Assembly (NCBI RefSeq): GCF_018837975.1
Contig: NZ_JAGSOY010000024.1
Span: forward strand, 1-64,000
Direction: 5' to 3'
DNA length: 64,000 nucleotides
Origin: Zooshikella harenae
GTDB taxonomy: Bacteria > Pseudomonadota > Gammaproteobacteria > Pseudomonadales > Zooshikellaceae
The position numbers and the translations under genes were made by a program. The notes under the pieces were generated by a model. That model made no database searches. It was not told the origin of the DNA and was given only the letters and a program-made list of their open reading frames with translations. This document shows positions 1 to 12,245 of the stretch, piece by piece (position 1 is the first letter of the stretch; each line of letters opens with the position of its first letter).

Positions 1-1
1 T

Positions 2-763
2 AAATGTGATTCTAATAGTGATCTATTTGAAAAGTTATTGGAACAAAGTTATGTACCTCAAGCCTTTCCAGGCTGTATTACAGATATAAAAGCTTATCTT
101 GACTTTATTGAAGGACGTAAAAAATTTAACAAAGACATGATAAAAGGATATGGTAAACATGTCATTGAAGGGTACGGTATAACTATGCGTCTAAATAGCT
201 ATACCGATGAATTCCTGAAGGAGATTATTGCATATTTAAACTCAAATAACTTTTTAGATATATTGAAGGAAAAATTTGAAATCGATGAATTTTTAAATAT
301 AGAGACTGCAATTCAGAAAAACCTAAATAAATATGAAATTAGCCCTCATTGCGATACAAGTCGAAAAGCATTAACTTATATGGTTAATATATATACTGAT
401 AAAAGATGTGAGGACCTTTCAATTCATACTCACCTACTAAAGTTTAAAGAACAATACAGGTACCTCTCTTTGTTTTGGGAAACCAATAATGTTGACCCAG
501 TTTGGGTGCCTTGGGATTGGTGTGAAACAGTAAAGTGCACATCGTCTAACAATAGCATTACTATTTTTAAGCCATCTCATGAAACACTACATGCTGTAAA
601 ACTTGATTATGACCATCTAGAATTTCAAAGAAATCAAATATACGGTAACCTCTGGTACGAAAAATCAAAAAAAACGGAAAATGTTCCTTGGCAAGATTTA
701 GATATAGTGAACAGGAGAAATGTAGGTTTTATCAGGCGTGCGCTGAGTAAGCTAGGCCTATAG
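2..763 (+). CDS. 2OG-Fe(II) oxygenase-like protein, 5' end outside the window
   Basis: The frame stays open to the left edge, so the first in-window start (TTG at 38, no ribosome site) is not the true start and the gene continues upstream. The visible 253 codons look like a double-stranded beta-helix oxygenase. An H-x-D pair sits in PHCDTS (His codon at 347, Asp at 353), a distal His in ETLHAVK (590) and a following Arg in FQRNQ about 13 residues later. This is the usual 2-histidine-1-carboxylate iron site plus 2-oxoglutarate anchor. The substrate is unknown. It lies next to a glycan locus that holds a second, unrelated-looking 2OG oxygenase, so a role in sugar or small-molecule modification is possible but not shown. 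It is A+T-richer than its neighbours. The family call rests on motif spacing only. Confidence 0.6.
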   Translation, partial: KCDSNSDLFEKLLEQSYVPQAFPGCITDIKAYLDFIEGRKKFNKDMIKGYGKHVIEGYGITMRLNSYTDEFLKEIIAYLNSNNFLDILKEKFEIDEFLNIETAIQKNLNKYEISPHCDTSRKALTYMVNIYTDKRCEDLSIHTHLLKFKEQYRYLSLFWETNNVDPVWVPWDWCETVKCTSSNNSITIFKPSHETLHAVKLDYDHLEFQRNQIYGNLWYEKSKKTENVPWQDLDIVNRRNVGFIRRALSKLGL

Positions 764-772
764 TTGTTTAAT

Positions 773-794
773 GCCCTTTTGTTTGGGGGCTTTT
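773..794. terminator. weak terminator-like hairpin after the oxygenase gene
   Basis: A short GCCC/GGGC stem (773-776 with 787-790) is followed by TTTT, ten bases after the stop codon of the left-edge gene. The convergent glycosyltransferase gene ends at 947. The stem is short, so this is tentative. Confidence 0.35.
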
Positions 795-946
795 CTCCTG
801 CAACCCAGTGATCATGGTGGTTTTAAGCAGGTAGCCACTGCTGATATTAGTAGTTAGTTATGTTACTTTCACTGCCATCTTTGCTTCCTCAACAAGGTGA
901 TAGAGATAATTAGCTCTTCACACAAAGACGCGTAGAACTCTAAAAT

Positions 947-2203
947 TTATCCACCTAACACAGCATAATATTGCTGTAAGTATTGACGTGCGATCTTATT
1001 CAAATCAAATTTTTCTTCTACGCACTGTCTTGCGGCAAGCGATAAGGCATTTGGAGTACTGCTATTGAGCACCCAAGCCACGCCTTGTGCCAAATCCATT
1101 GTATCCATCGGTTTGGCAAGATATCCGTTTGTTTGGTGCTTAATAAGATCCCCCATGCCGCCAATGTCGAATGCAACACAAGGTGTTGCAGCAGCTAGTG
1201 CTTCAAGCACAGTATTTGCGAGATTTTCTTGACGAGATGGCGCAACAAAGACATCCGCTGCACTATACAATGCGTTTATAGAAACATCATCCCTCAAAGG
1301 AACGATATTAAACAATGGGAAATGGGCTGTATCCCCTTCACACTTATGCACTTTTTCAGCCCCAAAAATGACTAATGCTGTATTTGAAACATCAACCCAT
1401 GTTTTCAAGTGACCCAAAGCTTTCTGTAACAAATCGTACCCTTTCCGATGATCTGCCGTACTGGAAACTGCACCAAATAAAATGAGTTGACTGTGCTGAG
1501 GCAAATTAAACATATCTCGTGCAACTGATTTTTGGATGGATTTATGGTATTTTAAATCCAATCCATTATGAATAACCTGGTGGAATTTCTCGGAAAACAA
1601 ACGGCTTGACTGAGCACAAGACTTTAACCAATGACTGGGGGAAATCACGTGAATTGGTAGTGACTGCCAGTAACGCTGTTTGCGTTTATAAATCCACTGG
1701 TCCCAGTCCCACCCCGTTTCTTCTTTAGGCCGATTGTTCGAGCTATAACCTTCAATATAGCGATTAGAAGCCGGATCTTTTACATAATGCTCAGTACCAC
1801 AAAAAGGCCACATGTCATGCAGGGTCCAAACTAATGGTGCATTAATCCTTGCTATTTCAGAAATACTGATCATTTCTCCATTGACCCAATGCAAATGTAC
1901 AATATCTGTATCCATTTGGTTCAAGGTATGGTGTAAACCCGTTGGCACAATATTCAAGGAGCGATACCCTAAATTTTTACCATGTTGTAATCTTTGTAAA
2001 GGCATCACCCAGTGTCCTCTCGTCATTCGAATGCCCTTACTAAAAATGCCTTTTGGCCCGACCACCGTTGGATCAACGGTTAATTTTTCATTTACCACCA
2101 TTTGGGAGTCTATTCCAATATGAAGCAACCCACGATGTATCCGGTAGGCTGCTTTGCTGGCCCCACCCATGCTGTCTGATACATTCACATGAACAACTTT
2201 CAT
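947..2203 (-). CDS. glycosyltransferase family 4 (GT-B fold)
   Basis: This 418-residue retaining glycosyltransferase probably adds a sugar from a nucleotide-sugar donor to the lipid-linked or polysaccharide product of this locus at the cytoplasmic face of the membrane. The N-terminal GT-B domain begins with the typical beta strand followed by MGGASKAAYRI. The C-terminal donor-binding domain carries the E-x7-E motif (E326 and E334, in QENLANTVLEALA), followed by the GG-G-D turn of the family. There is no signal peptide or membrane segment. Its ATG overlaps the stop codon of the upstream radical SAM-pyruvyl transferase gene (ATGA), so the two are translationally coupled and this is the last gene of the minus-strand glycan operon. 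Donor and acceptor cannot be read from sequence. Confidence 0.88.
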   Translation of the reverse strand: MKVVHVNVSDSMGGASKAAYRIHRGLLHIGIDSQMVVNEKLTVDPTVVGPKGIFSKGIRMTRGHWVMPLQRLQHGKNLGYRSLNIVPTGLHHTLNQMDTDIVHLHWVNGEMISISEIARINAPLVWTLHDMWPFCGTEHYVKDPASNRYIEGYSSNNRPKEETGWDWDQWIYKRKQRYWQSLPIHVISPSHWLKSCAQSSRLFSEKFHQVIHNGLDLKYHKSIQKSVARDMFNLPQHSQLILFGAVSSTADHRKGYDLLQKALGHLKTWVDVSNTALVIFGAEKVHKCEGDTAHFPLFNIVPLRDDVSINALYSAADVFVAPSRQENLANTVLEALAAATPCVAFDIGGMGDLIKHQTNGYLAKPMDTMDLAQGVAWVLNSSTPNALSLAARQCVEEKFDLNKIARQYLQQYYAVLGG

Positions 2204-4602
2204 AATAAGTCACCCAAGACTTCTACTAACTGATCAGGAAATGTAGGCTTGATAAGAACGCACCTTTTAACATCCAGATGGAATAAAGAATTGACTTGGG
2301 TAATGAGCTGTTCTGCTGTCAAAGACTCAAGAGAGGCACATGGTAACTGATGACTCTGAGCAAAGGCACTGAGCTTACCTTGGCCCAAGGTGTAATCTAC
2401 AATAAAAGTAGGCTTCTGCAATACGGTGGAAAAAACAGCTGCATGAAATCGCATAGCAATCACCGCATCTGCCTGATTAAAATATTGCACATAAGCTCTA
2501 GGTGTTAATTCCTCTCTTAGGACAGAATAATCCAGATGCGCTGCGATTTTTGGATGGCTGGCTAACAAGTTCAGATAAAAAAAACGATCATCACCACCAA
2601 AGTGATTGGTACACATGGGCAGTGGTACAAGGGTTAAATTTTGATGGTTCTCAATCAGAGCCGCCAAAGCGTCAACCAAAATGTGCTCAAAACGACGCTT
2701 TATTTGCTCTGCTTCTTGAGGGGCAGCCTGTGGCATGTATTGATGATAAGGCCAATCACGTAAACCCAGTAAGAGGGTTTTGCCTACACCAAGTTTTGTT
2801 TTTGATGGATCAATGGCCATATTTTTTTTGGATTGTTCAAGCCTTACACTGTGCAACCAAGTGATAGCAGGATCCTCAGCAACCATATCCTTAGAATTTA
2901 AAACTCCTAGATGGGTAGCCAAATTTCTTGAGTAATCGTCACGATAAATTCGATGATCAGCCAGTTTCAATACACGAGCAATGGCGGTATTTTTTTGAGC
3001 ATCCCCCAAGGGGCCTACTCCACAACCTAAAAGCAGAGACACCACCCCTTGCCTTTTTGCTTCTTCAAAGAGTACTTCCATTTCTGCAATTTCATTGATC
3101 GCCATAATGGGACCACCACCAAAAACCAACAAATCAAAACGAGGCATGTTTTGGATTGCGGTATCTATATCACAGATATCAGACCCTTCCAGTTCATCGA
3201 GTTGAGTTTTTGTCTCTTCTGAAATATAAGGATTTAGGGATGCAATACAAATGCTGAGCTCAGGATGGACTTTTCTTAAACTGGTGACAATCCCAGCCAG
3301 TATGGCTTTATCGCCTAAGGTTTCAGTCCCATACCAACCACAAATCAAAACTGTTGAAATACTCCTTTTTTGAGTGTTCAGTTCTTTTTTTCTGAGTCGT
3401 TTCCATTTTTTTCTAATGCGACTGCGGTGTGCTTGGAAACGCACTTTTTCAGAAATTACTTTGAGTGGGGTTGATAATAAGCGTTTTTTGATGGTGGTCT
3501 CATGTACCCCTAAATAACGTAAGAAATCTCTTACAATAATCCTGAACAAATCACTCCCCTCAGGTAAACCTACATAATCATGGCAACAGCTATTGCATTT
3601 TTGTTTAACAATGTTATGTAAATGGGCCTCATTTCCGAAGTAAGCAGTTGTAGTGTCCCCATCCAGTGCATTGCAAATCACCTGAGATTGAACGGCACAA
3701 TACAATAGCTCCCCTCTAGAGGATAAGGTGACACCACGATGCTGCCAGTCACAGCCAGCTCTGCGCTTATGCCCAAACAGTATTTGCCCAATGAGAGATT
3801 GATAAAATAATTTTTGCTGTTCTGAAGTTTCATAATAACGGCACACACCCTGTAGAAACTCAGAAAAATGGATGACTTCGGCACGTGAAAAGCGGTAAGG
3901 ATCATTAAACAACCAGGAAGTTTTACCTATTTGGTGAGCTTGAGAAGTATTGAGCGTGTATAAACGTTGGTGGGGAATGCCCAAACGAAACTTAATATAG
4001 ACACCCTCTCGGATTGCATAGGCCAACAATTCATGCAAGTGAAGTACATTTTCACGAATCACAGTACACCCAATTCTGACCTGGTCCACTTTGGGGTGAT
4101 TCACGACTTCTTTAAGTACCTGTGTTGCACTGACAAAATTGCCTGGTCGACCACGAACCCGATCATGTACTTCACCCACACCATCTAATGAAACCATCAC
4201 ATCAAAACAGCCACCACGTTGTTTAACGACAGCACCTATTTCATCAATACACTGAAGAACACGATCCGATTTTAAAGCATTGGTAATTAAGCTGATGGTT
4301 TGTAGTTTGGGTAGCCTATCAAACAGAACTGCAACCAAGTCTGCAGCATCTTTTCTCAGAGTAGGTTCACCTCCATTGATCCCGACAAATCGTATTTCAG
4401 AAAATAAATCTGCTCTCAAAAGTTCAGTCAGTTGTGGTGGTGTGATTTGTTGGTCCAACTTCATCTGCCAAATATGACACATCTGGCAACGAGCATCACA
4501 AATATCATTGATTGGAAACTGCATCACAATGGGCTTTTCAATTGGCCAAGGTTTTTTTTTAAATACCTTCAAAAATGTTGATACAGCATGTGCAGTATTC
4601 AT
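2200..4602 (-). CDS. radical SAM enzyme fused to polysaccharide pyruvyl transferase
   Basis: This is an 800-residue two-domain protein. Residues about 25-350 form a radical SAM domain: the cluster ligands are C35-x3-C39-x2-C42 in CDARCQMCHIW, and GGEP at 77-80 is the SAM-binding motif. Later cysteines (C284, C302, C310, C336, C339, C340) resemble a SPASM-type auxiliary cluster region. A strongly basic linker (about 392-413) leads to a polysaccharide pyruvyl transferase domain (WcaK/CsaB type) beginning at about 417 with GWYGTETLGDKAIL and containing LVFGGGPIM. That domain normally moves a pyruvyl group from PEP onto a sugar as a ketal. I infer coupled glycan modification: radical chemistry on one residue and pyruvylation on the same or another. 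The gene overlaps the downstream GT4 by 4 bases and follows the PhyH gene by about 36 bases. Each domain call is firm; the joint function is inference. Confidence 0.87.
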   Translation of the reverse strand: MNTAHAVSTFLKVFKKKPWPIEKPIVMQFPINDICDARCQMCHIWQMKLDQQITPPQLTELLRADLFSEIRFVGINGGEPTLRKDAADLVAVLFDRLPKLQTISLITNALKSDRVLQCIDEIGAVVKQRGGCFDVMVSLDGVGEVHDRVRGRPGNFVSATQVLKEVVNHPKVDQVRIGCTVIRENVLHLHELLAYAIREGVYIKFRLGIPHQRLYTLNTSQAHQIGKTSWLFNDPYRFSRAEVIHFSEFLQGVCRYYETSEQQKLFYQSLIGQILFGHKRRAGCDWQHRGVTLSSRGELLYCAVQSQVICNALDGDTTTAYFGNEAHLHNIVKQKCNSCCHDYVGLPEGSDLFRIIVRDFLRYLGVHETTIKKRLLSTPLKVISEKVRFQAHRSRIRKKWKRLRKKELNTQKRSISTVLICGWYGTETLGDKAILAGIVTSLRKVHPELSICIASLNPYISEETKTQLDELEGSDICDIDTAIQNMPRFDLLVFGGGPIMAINEIAEMEVLFEEAKRQGVVSLLLGCGVGPLGDAQKNTAIARVLKLADHRIYRDDYSRNLATHLGVLNSKDMVAEDPAITWLHSVRLEQSKKNMAIDPSKTKLGVGKTLLLGLRDWPYHQYMPQAAPQEAEQIKRRFEHILVDALAALIENHQNLTLVPLPMCTNHFGGDDRFFYLNLLASHPKIAAHLDYSVLREELTPRAYVQYFNQADAVIAMRFHAAVFSTVLQKPTFIVDYTLGQGKLSAFAQSHQLPCASLESLTAEQLITQVNSLFHLDVKRCVLIKPTFPDQLVEVLGDLL

Positions 4603-4638
4603 AATAAAGCCTAATATCGAGTTAAAATACGCCCCAAC

Positions 4639-5433
4639 CTACTTGATCGCTTGAGCAAACCAAGATTTCTGTGGTAAATCAACTTGCTGCTTTGAATAAC
4701 GAGACTGCAGTGAGCTTGGGTTTCCACCACGCATCATCAATGGCGACCCCCTGGGTGTGTAAATAGAAGCAATCCCCTGGTAAGAAACCCGATAAGCACG
4801 TCGGTTGGTCACAACGTTCACTTCATCGCTGGAGTGACAAAGCATGGCATCAAAAATCAGTACATCTCCAGCTTTTAACTCCACATACTTTGCTGCAGAC
4901 TCATCAATATAACGAGTGTCTAAACGATCATGATGGGTTTCCCCTTTTACACGGTGCCAAGGTAGATAACCTTTCTGATGTGATACTGGAATGACTTTCA
5001 GTGCATCATTCGAAACTTGAACATCATCTAATGCCATCCATACCACATATTTTTTAGGTTCGTGGGGGCGTGAAATAAAATCCTGATGCCAGGGCACTGC
5101 ATTCACTTTATTTTTTGGCTTATAGACCAAGCTATTCTCGTAGAGGAAAATATCTGGTCCAAGCACACCTTCTAGCACATCAAGTACTCTGTGTTGCTTT
5201 GCCAGCGACTGGAACTCTGGGTGACGCTGGTAAAGATCGTATAGGACTCCCTGATCATACCGATGCCTTAAATAATAGGACGAAAATGGATCTTCTAAGC
5301 CCATTTCGGCATGATGATGAATTTGATCAACCAACTGAGGTATGGGGGGTAATATTGCTGGATCGATGACTTGGCACAGTACGCTATAACCTTGTTTTTT
5401 AAGTGCCAAAACAGATTGTTTTCTTGACTCCAT
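4639..5433 (-). CDS. phytanoyl-CoA dioxygenase (PhyH) family 2OG-Fe(II) oxygenase
   Basis: This 264-residue cytoplasmic non-heme iron dioxygenase uses 2-oxoglutarate and O2. The iron site is visible as H116-x-D118 (in VPWHQDF) and the distal H200 (in DAMLCHSSDEV). An arginine at about 211-215 (RRAYRVSYQ) would bind the 2OG carboxylate. The length is normal for bacterial PhyH proteins that act on small molecules. It sits between the GT2 gene and the radical SAM-pyruvyl transferase fusion, with short gaps on both sides. That suggests it hydroxylates a sugar, an acyl group or another decoration of the glycan made here. The substrate is not predictable from sequence. Confidence 0.85.
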   Translation of the reverse strand: MESRKQSVLALKKQGYSVLCQVIDPAILPPIPQLVDQIHHHAEMGLEDPFSSYYLRHRYDQGVLYDLYQRHPEFQSLAKQHRVLDVLEGVLGPDIFLYENSLVYKPKNKVNAVPWHQDFISRPHEPKKYVVWMALDDVQVSNDALKVIPVSHQKGYLPWHRVKGETHHDRLDTRYIDESAAKYVELKAGDVLIFDAMLCHSSDEVNVVTNRRAYRVSYQGIASIYTPRGSPLMMRGGNPSSLQSRYSKQQVDLPQKSWFAQAIK

Positions 5434-5445
5434 CAGAGCGGACCC

Positions 5446-6258
5446 TCAGCTCGGCTGAGCTGCTAATTTATTTTTAATGGCCAAAAAAAATAACCGATAC
5501 TTTGGATAAATTAACCACCAAACAAGATAAATATAATGCCACAGGCTATTGCAACAATTTTTTTCATGCACTTTCTTTTCTTCTGTGAACCGGTTCAGTA
5601 AGCTTTGTTGGTCTGTTTTGGAGCTTATGCCTGTGTCCCGCATGACTGTTAAAACTAAATAAGTTTTTTTTAGACTGGCTTTTTTAAGATAAGCACGTAA
5701 AAACCAATCATAATCCATGGCGATTTTAAAATGAGTATCAAATAAACCGATGGTATCAAACAATGTTTTTTTACACAAAGCACCTTGATGAAATATACCT
5801 GTTTTTATATTGATCCAGGCATTAAATCCCCTAGGTTTTTGTAAAGAAAGATTGGGATTAGATCCATATAAAATATTGCATGCATATACATCATAGCCTG
5901 GTTTTTTTTTCATAAAATCAGCCACGACACTCAAGCTGTTTGACGTATGAAAGTAATCATCGGCATGTAAAAAAAGAATATAGGCACCTTGCGCATGGCC
6001 AAGCCCTTTATTCATGGCGTCTGCTATGCCTTGGTCTGGCTCCGTTTGCCAGTAATCAATGATATCTTGATGTTTTTGAATCACTTCCAAAGTGCCATCA
6101 CTAGAACCACCGTCAATGACAATATATTCATAATCTTGAAAGTTTTGTTCTTTAATGCTAATAAAAGTACTTTCAATAAAGTCGACCGCGTTATAACAGA
6201 CTGTAATGATACTGATCAAAGGCTTAGATGTTCTGTGGATCTGCTTAAAATTCTTCAT
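5446..6258 (-). CDS. glycosyltransferase family 2 (GT-A fold)
   Basis: This 270-residue inverting glycosyltransferase has the GT-A nucleotide-sugar fold at its N-terminus: PLISIITVCYNA, then VIDGGSSDGT, then a DXD-type metal motif in LHADDYFH near residue 100. A hydrophobic stretch near the C-terminus (about 240-262) may lie on the membrane. It resembles the WcaA/colanic-acid class that starts repeat-unit assembly from nucleotide sugars. It lies 4 bases downstream of the flippase stop codon in the minus-strand operon, so it is certainly co-transcribed with it. The specific linkage is unknown. Confidence 0.9.
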   Translation of the reverse strand: MKNFKQIHRTSKPLISIITVCYNAVDFIESTFISIKEQNFQDYEYIVIDGGSSDGTLEVIQKHQDIIDYWQTEPDQGIADAMNKGLGHAQGAYILFLHADDYFHTSNSLSVVADFMKKKPGYDVYACNILYGSNPNLSLQKPRGFNAWINIKTGIFHQGALCKKTLFDTIGLFDTHFKIAMDYDWFLRAYLKKASLKKTYLVLTVMRDTGISSKTDQQSLLNRFTEEKKVHEKNCCNSLWHYIYLVWWLIYPKYRLFFLAIKNKLAAQPS

Positions 6259-6262
6259 AAGA

Positions 6263-7585
6263 TTAAGCCATAAATCCCTTAATATAGGTAGGTAATCCCT
6301 TCAGCCACAAGGCACGAGTTTTCATGAAAAACAGTGACCGCATGGCTGGATGGAAAAGATCAAATAAATAAAAGGCAATGGCCAATGAACACACCGTTGC
6401 CATGGCTGCACCCACTGCACCATATTTTGGAATTAATAAATAGTTTAATAAAAAATTGGTGATGGTACCCACTGAGGTTCGATACAAAGCGAGTTTCACT
6501 TTGCTTTCTGCAAAAATCCAAGACCCAGAACACATCCCCAAGGCCACAAATAGCAAGCCCCAAATATAAATCATGAGTACTGTACTGGCCTTAGCATATT
6601 CAACACCAAACAGTACTTGGATGATTACAGGTGCGAGGCACATGGTAGGTAAGATCACCAAAAAAGACATCAAAACCAATAACATGAACAAATTCTGTAA
6701 GCTACTCAAATATTCCACTTGAGACTTCAATTTGCTGGTCATAATGGCCGGAAAAGTCGAGTTGACCACTGCAGCGGGAATAAAGTACCAGGCGTCTGTC
6801 AATCGTACAGCCGTTGAAAAAACAGCCATGCTTTCCACACTCACCATAGCCGTCAACATGATCTGATCTAATCGCATACATAACAGTATAGCTACAGCTG
6901 ATAGAGCTTCAGGCCAGCTTTCTAACAAGAGATTTTTTGCTTGGATCCTGCTGAAAGTCCAGCATATTTTAGCATCGACATTTTTGCGATAAAAAAACAA
7001 AGCAAGCAAGGCTATCAGGAAAAGCTCTAGGGCGCCCACCCAAGCAAAATAGATCACCGAAGCTCCAGAAAAAATTAAACTCACTTTAAAAAAACTGACC
7101 AGCAAAAAAGCTATGCTTTTGTATTGAACAGAATATTTGGCAGCCGTCTGAGATTGAAAGAACAACTCAATGACATCGAATGCTAAAAATAGATTGCCTA
7201 ATCCTGCAATGATCATCAAACCATGAGCATCACGAGGGACTAAATCAAAGACAATAATGATCAAGAGTAAAACCAAAAAGCTAACCAGAGCAGCCCCCAG
7301 CCTCAACCCAAAAACAGTACCCAATAGTTCAGCAGAAGCTTGACGGTCTTTCACCAACTCCCTCACCAAAATACGATTCAACCCCAGTGAAATCAAGGGT
7401 ACAAATAAGCCCGAAAATACAAAAGCATAATTCAACAGGCCAAAATCCTGAGGACCTAGATATCTGGCAATATAAGCAAATAAAAAAATACTGATAAAAA
7501 TGCGTAACCCGCGTTCAGCAAGCAACCAAAATGTATTGTACAAATGGGGCTTAATCCGTTGAAACTTTTGACTGATACCAGGCAT
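6263..7585 (-). CDS. Wzx-type flippase (MATE/polysaccharide transporter)
   Basis: This 440-residue integral membrane protein has about 12 hydrophobic segments. The N-terminal family signature appears as [32 protein letters not shown]. It should flip the undecaprenyl-linked repeat unit from cytoplasm to periplasm for polymerisation or ligation. The start overlaps the 3' end of fcl by 35 bases; no closer in-frame ATG exists, so the overlap is probably real. No Wzy polymerase or Wzc/Wzz chain-length gene is visible in the window, so the rest of the export machinery must lie elsewhere. Confidence 0.9.
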
Positions 7586-8516
7586 AGGTGATCTGAAGCC
7601 CTTCTTCCAAGCTTACACGGGGTTGCCAATTGAGCGCCTGTATACGATCAATGGCCAATTTTTTTTGGAGCGTACCATCTGGTTGGTTGCTATCAAACTG
7701 GATGCTCCCAGAGTAACCCGTGATTTCCTTAATGTGCTGAGCCAAGTCGGCAATAGTCAGGTCTTTACCAGTGCCCACATTCAAATGAGCACACATTGGC
7801 TGAGTGCCTTGATGATAGGTGTCTTGGGGTTGCCGTAAAACATGCAGACAAGCCTCGGCTAAATCGTCCACATACAAAAATTCACGTCGTGGTGACCCAC
7901 TGCCCCAAACGGTGACATGAGGCAGTTGTTTCAGCTTGGCTTGATGAAATTTATGAATTAAAGCAGGAATAACATGACTGTTTTTATCTGCAAAGTGGTC
8001 TTCAGGACCATAAAGATTACAGGGCATCAGGGTACGATAATCAGTGCCATACTGCCGATTGTAAGACTCGCAAAGTTTAAGTCCTGCAATCTTAGCAATG
8101 GCATAGGGTTCATTGGTAGGCTCTAGGGGGCCAGACAATAAAGCCTTTTCTTGGATTGGTTGTTCCGTATATTTAGGATAAATACAAGAGCTGCCCAGAA
8201 AAAGCAAAGTCTTTACCCCTGTTACATAGGCTGCATGGATGACATTGCTTTGTATCATTAAATTGTTATAAATAAACTCTGCAGGATAAGTGTTGTTGGC
8301 CCAAATTCCCCCCACTTTGGCTGCAGCTAATATGACCACATCGATCTCCGATTGCTCAAAAAAGTCACGCACAGCACATTGCTGGGTTAAATCTAAGTCG
8401 GCATGACATCGAGTAATGCGGTTTGGATAATCTTGTTTGGACAAGGCACGCATGATGGCTGAACCCACCATGCCTTTATGACCCGCAATATAAATTCGTG
8501 AGTCTTTTTTTAGCAT
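7551..8516 (-). CDS. fcl: GDP-L-fucose synthase
   Basis: This bifunctional epimerase/reductase turns GDP-4-keto-6-deoxy-D-mannose into GDP-L-fucose with NADPH. It is an extended SDR with the Rossmann motif [12 protein letters not shown] near the N-terminus, the catalytic Ser in GSSCIYPK, and the Y-x3-K pair in [10 protein letters not shown]. The stretch NLYGPEDHF is typical of Fcl. I place the start at the ATG at 8516 ([12 protein letters not shown]), which matches the usual family N-terminus and lies 4 bases after the gmd stop; an in-frame ATG at 8555 would add 13 unusual residues and overlap gmd. It works directly after Gmd in the pathway and in the operon. Confidence 0.93.
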
Positions 8517-8520
8517 GAGA

Positions 8521-9603
8521 TTAAAGAGACTGCTCGGCCAAACGTAGGTCAGCATGGACCATGTCTTTCACCAATTCGGAAAAGCTGATTTTTGGAGTCC
8601 AGCTCAATTTCTCTCTGGCCTTACTGGCATCCCCTTGCAGAGAGTCCACCTCAGTCAACCGATAATAACGTGGATCAACGGCCACAATGGTTTTTCCTGT
8701 ACTCTGTTCAATGCCTACTTCTTCCATCCCATGTCCCTGCCAAACCATGAATATGGATAGCTCCTGACAGACGGCCTCAACAAATGCACGCACACTGTAT
8801 TGTTTGCCTGTAGCCAAAACAAAGTCTTCCGGCTGGTCTTGTTGCAACATGAGCCACATGGCCTGGACATAGTCTTTGGCATGTCCCCAGTCTCGCTTGG
8901 CTTCTAGGTTACCCAAGTATAGACAGGGTATTTCTTGGGGGCTTGGTGCACTGGTATTGGCAGTAAGCGCTAACTTGATGCGAGTTAAAGCTCGGGTGAT
9001 TTTACGGGTTACAAAGGTTTCTCCCCGAATGGGAGACTCATGATTAAAAGCAATTCCGTTACAGGCATAAAGACCATAAGCCTCTCGATAGTTCACTGTA
9101 ATCCAATAAGCATAAAGCTTGGCAACGGCATAGGGGGAGCGCGGATAAAAGGGTGTGGTTTCTTTTTGTGGGACTTCTTGCACTAAGCCATATAGCTCGG
9201 AAGAGGATGCTTGATAAAAACGCACTTGATCCACCAACTTAAGACTACGCATGATTTCAAGTAGCCGCAAAGTACCCAAAGCATCGGAGTTGGCTGTATA
9301 TTCTGGTTCCTCAAAAGAAACGGCAACATGGGACTGGGCCGCCAAATTATAAATTTCAGTGGGCTGTGCAGTTTGTACAATGTGCATTAAACTAGATGCA
9401 TCCGTCATGTCTCCATGGTGTAAAATAAATTTTCTATGCTCAATATGAGGTGCCTGATACATATGATCGATGCGTTGAGTATTCAACAAAGAAGTCCGGC
9501 GTTTTACACCATGCACTCGATAACCTTTGTTCAATAATAGTTCTGCTAAATAGGCCCCGTCTTGACCTGTAATCCCGGTAATCAGCGCGACTTTCTCTTC
9601 CAC
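8521..9603 (-). CDS. gmd: GDP-mannose 4,6-dehydratase
   Basis: This 360-residue NADP-dependent extended SDR makes GDP-4-keto-6-deoxy-D-mannose from GDP-mannose, the first committed step to GDP-L-fucose. Motifs seen are [15 protein letters not shown] (cofactor binding), [13 protein letters not shown], the Y-x3-K pair in [13 protein letters not shown] and the GDP-binding run [17 protein letters not shown]. The start codon is GTG (complement of 9601-9603). It is the first gene of the minus-strand glycan operon, so the promoter should lie in 9604-10000. It is paired with fcl immediately downstream. Confidence 0.95.
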
Positions 9604-10000
9604 TGGGTTATGGCTTCCTAATATTTATTATTAATCATCTTGCTACTCAGCTAAAGTATGGATTTTAGAGCATAGGGATGGGAAAACCTAAACACCTATT
9701 AACTAACTTTTAATTACTAGCTTATTATTGTGTTCTGGTCTACTTCAACTGGACATTTTCTTTTTGAGAATTTTGGTGCTAAATCGATTTCATATTGGTT
9801 TTATTGAGTGGCCCATTGATTGATCAGTAATGGACGTTCAAATCCTTTTATACGGCATGTTTCGGCTTTCTTTCCACTCTCGTTAAGTTCCTTACGCTAA
9901 ATGGCTAATTAAATTATCAAATTTATCTGTATAAATAGGTTGCGAGTAAATATTTTAAACGCAGTGTAAAGAATTGTTAAAGTGAATAGTGCTAGTATTG
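9604..10000. other. intergenic region between gmd and galE
   Basis: About 400 A+T-rich bases without a supported gene. It must hold the promoter of the minus-strand gmd operon and the end of galE transcription. I see no clear terminator hairpin, no JUMPstart-like element and no operator that I would name. Confidence 0.6.
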
Positions 10001-11020
10001 TTATTGTGGTTTATATCCACCCGGATTCCCCTCCTGCCAACGCCAAGTGTCTTCTACCATATCTTGTAATCCTAACTCAGCCTTCCAATGTAATTCTTTG
10101 GCTGATAAATCTGGATTGGCGTAACAGGCTGCTATATCTCCGGGTCTTCTTGCGACAATATCGTATGGGACAGGCCTACCGCTGGCTTTTGCAAATGCAT
10201 TCGCCATTTCCAGTACGCTATAACCTGTACCTACGCCTAAATTATAGGCTTTGCAGCCAGGGGTTTCCTGGATTTTCTCTAATGCTTTAACGTGACCTCT
10301 GGCCAAGTCAACCACGTGTATATAATCTCTTACCCCTGTGCCATCTTTAGTGTCATAGTCATCGCCAAAAACATGGAGTTTTTCGCGTTTACCAATAGCA
10401 ACTTGAGAAATAAAAGGCATTAAGTTGTTTGGTATACCTTGTGGATCTTCTCCAATGAGTCCTGACTTATGTGCACCCACTGGGTTAAAGTAGCGTAGTA
10501 TTATTAAATTCCAATGACGCTCTGCTTGGTAAAGGTCTCTTAGAATTTCTTCAATCATGAGTTTTGAGCGACCATAAGGATTTGTCGCTGAAAGTGGGAA
10601 GTCTTCAGTGATAGGGAGGCTTGCTGGATCACCATAGACTGTCGCTGAGGAACTGAAAACGAAGTTATGAACTTTATGTTGTTGCATCACCTGGATAAGA
10701 TTCAGCGTGCCAGTGATGTTGTTTTCGTAGTAGGTCAGTGGTATTTGAGTTGACTCACCAACTGCTTTTAAGCCAGCAAAATGTATTACCGCATAGAAAG
10801 AATGTTCTTTAAAAACTCTTTCCATACTTTCTTTATCACGAATATCCGCTTTGATAAAAGTGAGTTCTTTATTACAAATTTTTTGAACGCGGTTAAGAGC
10901 TTCACTGCTACTGTTGCATAAATTATCAACAACAACGATGTCATAATTCGCATTGAGTAGCTCTACACAAGTGTGGCTGCCTATATAGCCAGCTCCGCCA
11001 GTAACAAGAATTTTTTTCAT
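10001..11020 (-). CDS. galE: UDP-glucose 4-epimerase
   Basis: This enzyme interconverts UDP-glucose and UDP-galactose (or the GlcNAc/GalNAc forms) with tightly bound NAD. The N-terminus [17 protein letters not shown] is the classic GalE Rossmann motif. The catalytic Y-x3-K is in [14 protein letters not shown] with the Ser in FSSSATVYG. The ATG at 11020 gives the standard 339-residue protein; a longer in-frame start at 11074 would add 18 residues unlike the family. It supplies galactose-type precursors to the neighbouring glycan locus but is separated from it by 400 bases and looks independently transcribed. Confidence 0.95.
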
Positions 11021-11333
11021 AAAGTTTTTGTGTTTAAACCGTAGGTTAGCAAGATCAGTAATACTGATTAACAAGTAGTGTGTAAAGTATATACCTATAG
11101 TGAAGGGTTTTTAGGGACGTCCGTCAAGTGATGAGGTTTCAGGGCATGCCTGTTACTGTAAGATTTGAGGTAGTTACTTTAATTTACATAACGTTGCTGG
11201 ACGACAATTATAAGTAACCAGTAGGACAGTAAAACCTACCAATGTATTGGGTATACATTAGAACAGCGTTACTTGTCCGTTAAGGTAAGCGCTAAGAATT
11301 ACACGTATAAAAATGATTTGTGTAGGGTGTGTT
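11021..11333. other. intergenic region between galE and nadC
   Basis: About 310 bases. It should carry the galE promoter and the end of nadC transcription. I find no strong hairpin with a T-tract and no recognisable binding site. Confidence 0.5.
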
Positions 11334-12173
11334 TCATTGAAAGCGCATAGATAGGTCAACAGCTTGGCAATTTTTGGTCAGGTCGCCGATGGATATATAG
11401 TCAACACCTGTCTCTGCAATGCTGACAATGGTTTTTTCACTGACATTTCCTGAGGCTTCAAGCTTCGCCTGCTTTTGATTGATTGATACGGCCTGTTTCA
11501 GATCATCAATTGAAAAGTTATCCAGCATGATGATATCCGCTTTAGCAGCCAAGGCTTGATGCAGCTCTTGTAGGTTTTCTACTTCAACTTCAATGTTTTT
11601 ACCTAAGTTTAGAGTGCGCGCATTATTGATTGCTGCAGTAATGCTACCACAGGCTGCAATGTGGTTTTCTTTTATAAGAAATGCGTCGTACAAACCTATG
11701 CGATGGTTATAGCAGCCGCCTTGGGTAACAGCATATTTTTGTGCTAACCGTAGACCAGGGAGTGTTTTGCGAGTATCGAGTAGTTTAACGTTGGTATGGG
11801 CTACTGACTTTGCATAGTGGCTACAACGTGTTGCTGTTCCTGATAGTGTTTGTAAAAAGTTAAGTGCTGTGCGTTCTGCTGTGAGTAAGCTGCGTGCAGT
11901 GCCAGAAATAGTAAGAAGTTGCTGATTAGGGGTAACGTGGTCACCTTCACTCACTTGCCAATGGAGGTTAATGGTTGAGTCAACTTTTTGAAATGTGGCA
12001 TCAACCCATGGACGTCCACAAATAACGGCATTTTCACGTGAAATAATAGTGGCTGTCGCATTTTCATCTGCAGGAATGAGGTTAGCGGTAATATCACCAT
12101 TGCCAATATCTTCAGCAAGGGCAAGTGTGGTGATTTGGTCAATACTGTCTTGCAATTGTTGATTGGAGTACAT
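11334..12173 (-). CDS. nadC: nicotinate-nucleotide pyrophosphorylase (carboxylating)
   Basis: This enzyme makes nicotinate mononucleotide, CO2 and PPi from quinolinate and PRPP in de novo NAD synthesis. Family motifs are [13 protein letters not shown] near the N-terminus, [18 protein letters not shown] (quinolinate and PRPP contacts) and KENHIAACG, with the C-terminal barrel segments EVEVENL, IMLDNF and YISIGDLT. The ATG at 12173 (MYSNQQLQ) is preferred over a TTG two codons upstream. Length (279 residues) is normal. Its position next to the DUF1631-ampDE block matches the arrangement known in Pseudomonas. Confidence 0.95.
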
Positions 12174-12245
12174 AGCCAACTGAGGGTATTTAGTTAAGGG
12201 TAGAAAATATGGACAAGAGTATAGCGAGCTAAAAACATGATGTCT

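Follow-up and report, generated by a model that had tools for sequence, protein, structure and literature searches.

A predicted radical SAM–polysaccharide pyruvyl transferase fusion in a glycan island of Zooshikella harenae

The fusion open reading frame

The locus described here lies in a 64,000 nt stretch of Zooshikella harenae DNA (contig NZ_JAGSOY010000024.1, positions 1–64,000, forward strand), termed the window. An open reading frame on its minus strand joins a radical S-adenosylmethionine (radical SAM) domain to a polysaccharide pyruvyl transferase domain by way of a linker. The frame starts with ATG and contains no internal stop codons. Both domains pass their Pfam cut-offs, and this is also the case in full-length homologues from two other genomes, G173, which belongs to the same order, and G898, which belongs to another class. 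An initial annotation, made from the sequence alone, had described a single polypeptide with these two domains, which is confirmed. Downstream is a gene for a family 4 glycosyltransferase (GT4), and the GT4 start lies inside the stop of the fusion.

The radical SAM half displays a CxxxCxxC motif at C35, C39 and C42. The motif was recognized in the initial annotation and is invariant in the three fusions. A GGE motif and all seven cluster cysteines are likewise invariant in the three, which come from two classes. The cysteines beyond the core had been termed SPASM-like. The SPASM domain, which holds two auxiliary clusters, has a pattern of seven cysteines. This pattern is not present here, as only four conserved cysteines follow the radical SAM core. 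In addition, the Pfam SPASM family (PF13186) does not match the window protein at an expectation value (E) of 0.001, and its score in G898 is 16.3 bits, which is under the cut-off of 21.5. Thus the four further cysteines stand, but a full SPASM domain does not. They end in C-x2-C and appear twitch-like, i.e. they suit a one-cluster twitch domain better than a full SPASM domain. The twitch domain is a truncated SPASM domain with one auxiliary cluster bound, and BtrN is a twitch enzyme that has an auxiliary cluster with four cysteine ligands and oxidizes a cyclitol (PMC9012708, in extracts).

In the pyruvyl transferase half, R554, R718, H720 and K743 are invariant in all four sequences compared, i.e. 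the three fusions and a more distant protein from genome G712. These residues are predicted to correspond to R148, R306, H308 and K328 of CsaB. R718, H720 and K743 were mapped by alignment to Pvg1p (5ax7), a weak match (E 0.57) with RFH and GK in register, and R554 was mapped through the RxxxS/T motif. Extracts of a CsaB study (PMC10435577) give R148, H308 and K328, of which variants were tested, as critical for phosphoenolpyruvate (PEP) binding, and name R306. The motifs RxxxS/T and NxGD and a conserved histidine are given for pyruvyl transferases in extracts of PMC10629545. RxxxS/T is found at R554 to S558 in the three fusions, and the conserved histidine is H720. From their residues, both halves look active.

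The highest hydropathy in windows of 19 residues is 1.15 in the window protein, 1.68 in G173 and 1.74 in G898, and the enzyme is predicted to be without a clear transmembrane segment.

Homologues and distribution

The G173 homologue is full length and displays 44–46% identity (46% over residues 5–773). In G898 both halves are found in one 774 aa frame with 31% identity. The radical SAM half is 48% identical to G173 and 34% to G898, and the pyruvyl transferase half 42% and 30%, respectively. The radical SAM half is therefore at least as constrained as the pyruvyl transferase half, and neither half looks decayed.

Surveys of up to 400 genomes each were made at E 1e-12, with at most two candidates scored per genome, so that weaker relatives could be missed. 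In the order, 2 of 390 genomes match, i.e. the window's own genome and G173. In the class, 6 of 369 match including the own genome; G712 does so through its pyruvyl transferase region only and four through the radical SAM region only. In the phylum there are 17 matches among 398 genomes, again including the own genome; G898 has both halves and the other 15 the N-terminal half only. Because the three sets overlap, their counts were kept separate. A search of 56 near relatives, with the single congener G001 and three genomes from the same family among them, gave a match at E 1e-10 in the own genome alone. A profile of the fusion finds only G173 among 10 genomes of its family (E 1e-30) and only G898 among 78 genomes of its order (E 1e-40); the searches around G898 by class and by order covered the same 78. 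The transferase profile alone matches 2 of 303 genomes of the class at E 1e-20, i.e. the own genome and G407, where the match is a standalone protein in a 384 aa frame. In the order of G712 it matches one of four genomes, G712 itself.

Plasmid sequences gave five records, of which the top one covers 39%, and phage sequences three, of which the top one covers 25%. Species genomes searched with back-translated patterns gave one relative, over residues 24–142 only. One radical SAM relative was found in viral contigs, a radical SAM-like protein with CxxxCxxC on an IMG/VR contig (L046, positions 4983–5990). The fusion is rare and scattered in the genomes searched, which suggests horizontal transfer.

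The G712 protein (L028, positions 2433–4400) has a transferase half of the same subfamily with 28% identity. Its N-terminal region was also considered as a degenerate radical SAM domain. A global alignment is suggestive by eye, but the profile score of −3.6 bits is no better than that of 200 shuffled sequences (best 0.6), and this assignment was rejected.

Seventeen loci with a standalone radical SAM match were retrieved, and the neighbouring genes were scanned with Pfam in four. A glycosyltransferase, flippase or methyltransferase gene is found beside the standalone radical SAM/SPASM relative in all four, but for three of these the choice followed from earlier BLAST matches to glycan genes nearby, and the count is therefore an illustration and not a rate.

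The partner glycosyltransferase and the glycan island

The GT4 proteins at the window, G173 and G898 loci are mutual best matches among the open reading frames of the regions compared. In G173 the GT4 gene adjoins the fusion, with 41% and 42% identity on its two pieces. This gene (L026, positions 8242–9515) is split into frames of 240 and 175 aa, either because it is broken or through a sequencing error. In G898 one methyltransferase gene separates the GT4 gene from the fusion, and the identity is 30% over 440 columns; an ABC transporter with a Wzt-like domain is also among the neighbours. The translational coupling to a GT4 proposed in the initial annotation agrees with the overlap of the two genes (Table 1), and the GT4 travels with the fusion.

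Upstream of the fusion the gene order is PhyH, GT2 (family 2 glycosyltransferase), flippase, epimerase/reductase, GDP-mannose dehydratase, GalE-like epimerase and nadC. The PhyH neighbour and the GDP-fucose context noted at the outset are present at the window locus. They are not general, however, as PhyH and GDP-fucose genes were not found among the open reading frames of 20 kb around the G173 fusion and of 15 kb of the 23-kb G898 contig, and they were rejected as a defining trait. The conserved unit seen is the fusion with its GT4, and the rest of the neighbourhood differs. Beyond the GT4 gene, window positions 38–763 (+) hold a 241 aa open reading frame without a Pfam match, in which a PHCD...H pattern suggests by eye another Fe(II)/2-oxoglutarate oxygenase. 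A scan of the window with Rfam gave no match.

Table 1. Features of the fusion locus in window coordinates.
Feature	Position	Strand	Basis
Partner GT4 glycosyltransferase	947..2203	−	Pfam; ATGA overlap of 4 bases with fusion, 2200–2203
Radical SAM/twitch-like–polysaccharide pyruvyl transferase fusion	2200..4602	−	800 aa, single open frame; two Pfam domains; full-length homologues in G173 and G898
Polysaccharide pyruvyl transferase domain, residues 429–737 (R554, R718, H720 within; K743 just past the end)	2392..3318	−	PF04230, 79.7 bits (cut-off 25.3), E 4.5e-22
Basic linker, residues 346–412	3367..3567	−	20 lysine + arginine (K+R) vs 6 aspartate + glutamate (D+E)
Twitch-like auxiliary cysteines C284-x17-C302-x33-C336-x2-C339	3586..3753	−	Identical spacing and invariant columns in 3/3 fusions
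Radical SAM domain, residues 31–192	4027..4512	−	PF04055, 41.3 bits (cut-off 29.5), E 2.4e-10
CxxxCxxC cluster motif, C35/C39/C42	4477..4500	−	Sequence; invariant in 3/3 fusions
PhyH-type Fe(II)/2-oxoglutarate oxygenase	4639..5433	−	PF05721, E 2.7e-21
GT2 glycosyltransferase	5446..6258	−	PF00535, E 2.6e-26
Wzx-like flippase	6263..7585	−	PF01943, E 8.2e-18; 55% identical to flippase beside G173 fusion (BLAST)
GDP-L-fucose synthase-like epimerase/reductase	7551..8555	−	PF01370, E 1.8e-65; specific name suggested by pairing with dehydratase
GDP-mannose 4,6-dehydratase	8521..9603	−	PF16363, E 2.3e-146
GalE-like epimerase, island start	10001..11074	−	Pfam; adjoins nadC; 97% identical in congener G001, 72–74% in G002–G004
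nadC, island boundary	11334..12179	−	61% identical to L026 gene matching QRPTase; present in 6/6 other genomes searched

These genes form part of a variable glycan island that adjoins nadC; seven relatives have the island between nadC and pilin genes. The pilus genes named here are presumed to be pilB, pilC and pilD from their motifs and gene order; among the pilus genes, the Pfam check covered the pilin on contig C323 of the Z. harenae genome (PF00114, E 3.9e-28). In G001, the congener, nadC and galE are followed by cargo and then by a pilin-like gene, pilB, pilC and the first part of a pilD-like gene. The cargo consists of a methyltransferase, dehydrogenase-like and asparagine synthase-like proteins, a GT2 and others. 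The same island (L058, positions 5455–7581) encodes a 708 aa protein in which zinc-dehydrogenase and GFO/IDH/MocA domains are joined. The nadC-to-pilin arrangement is found with other cargo in G002, G003, G004 and G071 and is nearly empty in G152. In G173 the order is nadC, two GT4 genes, the split GT4, the fusion, a flippase, a GT2, two large proteins and a pilin-like gene.

The window's contig (C157) begins inside this island, at window positions 1–12179, and the pilin side is found on C323 (L072). On C323 there is a partial pilD-like gene, followed by pilC, pilB, the pilin gene and genes for a 631 aa protein that Pfam does not match, for a GT2 and for two proteins with 26% and 35% identity to the other two GT4s of G173. 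The end of this contig adjoins a fragment of an IS1595-type transposase. The ends of C157 and C323 share only a weak match of 30 bases. The two contigs probably derive from opposite sides of a single island that is interrupted at repeats. The glycan may be destined for lipopolysaccharide, capsule or pilin.

Proposed function and comparison with known enzymes

To our knowledge, radical SAM enzymes that act on surface glycans are little characterized. We are slightly inclined to regard the fusion as a bifunctional glycan-tailoring enzyme which would perform a radical oxidation or epimerization and a ketal-pyruvylation on one glycan and would work with the GT4. The C-terminal half would transfer pyruvate from PEP onto two sugar hydroxyls and form a ketal, as do CsaB, Pvg1p and WbbZ. 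The N-terminal half, as a twitch-type radical SAM enzyme, would generate a 5′-deoxyadenosyl radical for hydrogen abstraction from a sugar residue within the same lipid-linked glycan. The carbon might then be oxidized, with the auxiliary cluster accepting an electron as is thought likely for BtrN, or be epimerized. The GT4 may add the modified sugar or the next sugar, and the basic linker may keep the enzyme at the membrane, near the lipid-linked intermediate. The single polypeptide, its two domains, the conserved cluster cysteines and PEP-site residues and the co-conserved GT4 are shown by the sequences; catalysis by both domains, the common substrate, the type of radical reaction and the membrane docking are what we infer from them. 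A more specific proposal, held tentatively and with somewhat less than even confidence, is that both reactions occur on the same sugar of the lipid-linked glycan and that the fusion represents an undescribed enzyme class, carried between two classes within one phylum as a cassette that includes its own GT4. The “doubly modified sugar” of the initial annotation would follow from this proposal, but the domains may each modify a different residue.

Several results weigh against a bifunctional enzyme of this kind. The transferase half of all four sequences reads T-x-G-D instead of N-x-G-D, and the usual N is found in the standalone G407 protein. In G712 alanine replaces the S/T of RxxxS/T. The linker, described as basic in the initial annotation, is so in the window protein; the counts are 13 K+R and 4 D+E in G898, and in G173 the linker is only mildly basic (11 and 7). 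A structure prediction from a three-row alignment gave a predicted local distance difference test (pLDDT) score of 48.6, too poor for use. The N-terminal region of G712, about 305 residues, has no CxxxCxxC and is recognized neither by Pfam nor by the radical SAM profile. Of all the results, this one argues most strongly against the two halves being strictly dependent on each other. Since the G712 transferase occurs without a recognizable radical SAM domain, pyruvylation does not need the radical SAM domain everywhere. Loss of the radical SAM cysteines in close relatives had been named as a point that would speak against the fusion; they are kept in both full-length relatives, and G712 answers in part to this description but is not a close relative.

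The G712 protein bears on two alternatives. Two enzymes of one pathway may have been fused for co-expression only, in which case the radical SAM half would act on a nucleotide sugar or on a different residue, and the transferase independently on the growing glycan. This is rather unlikely in our estimate, but it accords with a G712 transferase that lacks a recognizable radical SAM half and with radical SAM/SPASM relatives that stand alone in glycan loci. A split pair was not found: in 20 regions and the first 14 kb of the window, the transferase profile matched only four fused or extended proteins. The weight of this is small, because, of the 17 standalone loci, only 12 yielded the radical SAM frame itself with the open reading frame caller, and a neighbouring gene could be missed too. 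Alternatively, the radical SAM half may be a non-catalytic scaffold that binds a substrate or a partner for the transferase, as the other N-terminal residues before the same transferase in G712 might suggest. The invariance of the seven cluster cysteines and GGE across two classes makes a scaffold improbable.

The radical SAM half may also catalyze a different chemistry, i.e. install a carbon–carbon, carbon–sulfur or methyl modification, or decarboxylate a uronic acid as BlsE does. Among solved proteins, SkfB and cytosylglucuronate decarboxylase are closest to it in sequence. These matches, however, span only the common radical SAM core (residues ~24–206) and therefore do not discriminate between chemistries, and we regard this alternative as unlikely. 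The suspicion, raised with the initial annotation, that a frameshift or an assembly error joined two genes derives some support from the location of the window at the start of a contig in a draft of 377 contigs. It is hardly credible, and was rejected, because the same full-length fusion is found in G173 and G898; in addition, the G+C content at third codon positions is equal in the two halves (0.340 and 0.343).

If the bifunctional enzyme acts with both halves on one sugar, it would provide a substrate context for radical SAM/SPASM proteins in polysaccharide loci. The covalent pairing ties the predicted radical reaction to a testable pyruvyl modification that is visible by nuclear magnetic resonance.

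The open-licence PubMed Central (PMC) literature gave no paper that pairs radical SAM with polysaccharide pyruvyl transferase or pyruvyltransferase, and none that combines radical SAM, exopolysaccharide, glycosyltransferase and SPASM. The statement of the initial annotation that the fusion is not a described enzyme thus holds for these papers. A Brachyspira hyodysenteriae plasmid has a four-gene block in which a radical SAM gene is found with a glycosyl transferase gene and two sugar-epimerase genes (PMC4267127, in extracts); unlike the fusion these genes are separate, and the abstract does not name a pyruvyl transferase.

The N-terminal half resembles the twitch-domain enzymes BtrN and MoaA in having CxxxCxxC and four further cysteines. 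However, BtrN is absent among the nine solved sequences matched by the fusion up to E 10, and the match to MoaA is limited to the core (E 0.0013). Two NCBIfam families show similarity in the core but fall below their cut-offs, i.e. the twitch radical SAM family NF033640 (E 2e-12, 46.9 bits vs 170) and the PTO1314 family TIGR03961 (E 1.2e-17, 64.3 bits vs 306). On the C-terminal side the fusion falls below the cut-offs of the CsaB equivalog TIGR03609 (89 vs 213.1 bits) and of the WcaK equivalogs NF007452 (32.1 vs 399 bits) and TIGR04006 (26.4 vs 727.1 bits). CsaB of Paenibacillus alvei, Pvg1p of S. pombe and WbbZ of Klebsiella are ketal-pyruvyl transferases that have in common with the fusion the PF04230 domain and, in the PEP site, the conserved arginines, histidine and lysine. 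The fusion differs from them in the T-x-G-D that replaces N-x-G-D and in the attached radical SAM half. It is a new combination of known kinds of enzyme, and is undescribed in the sense of the literature search above.

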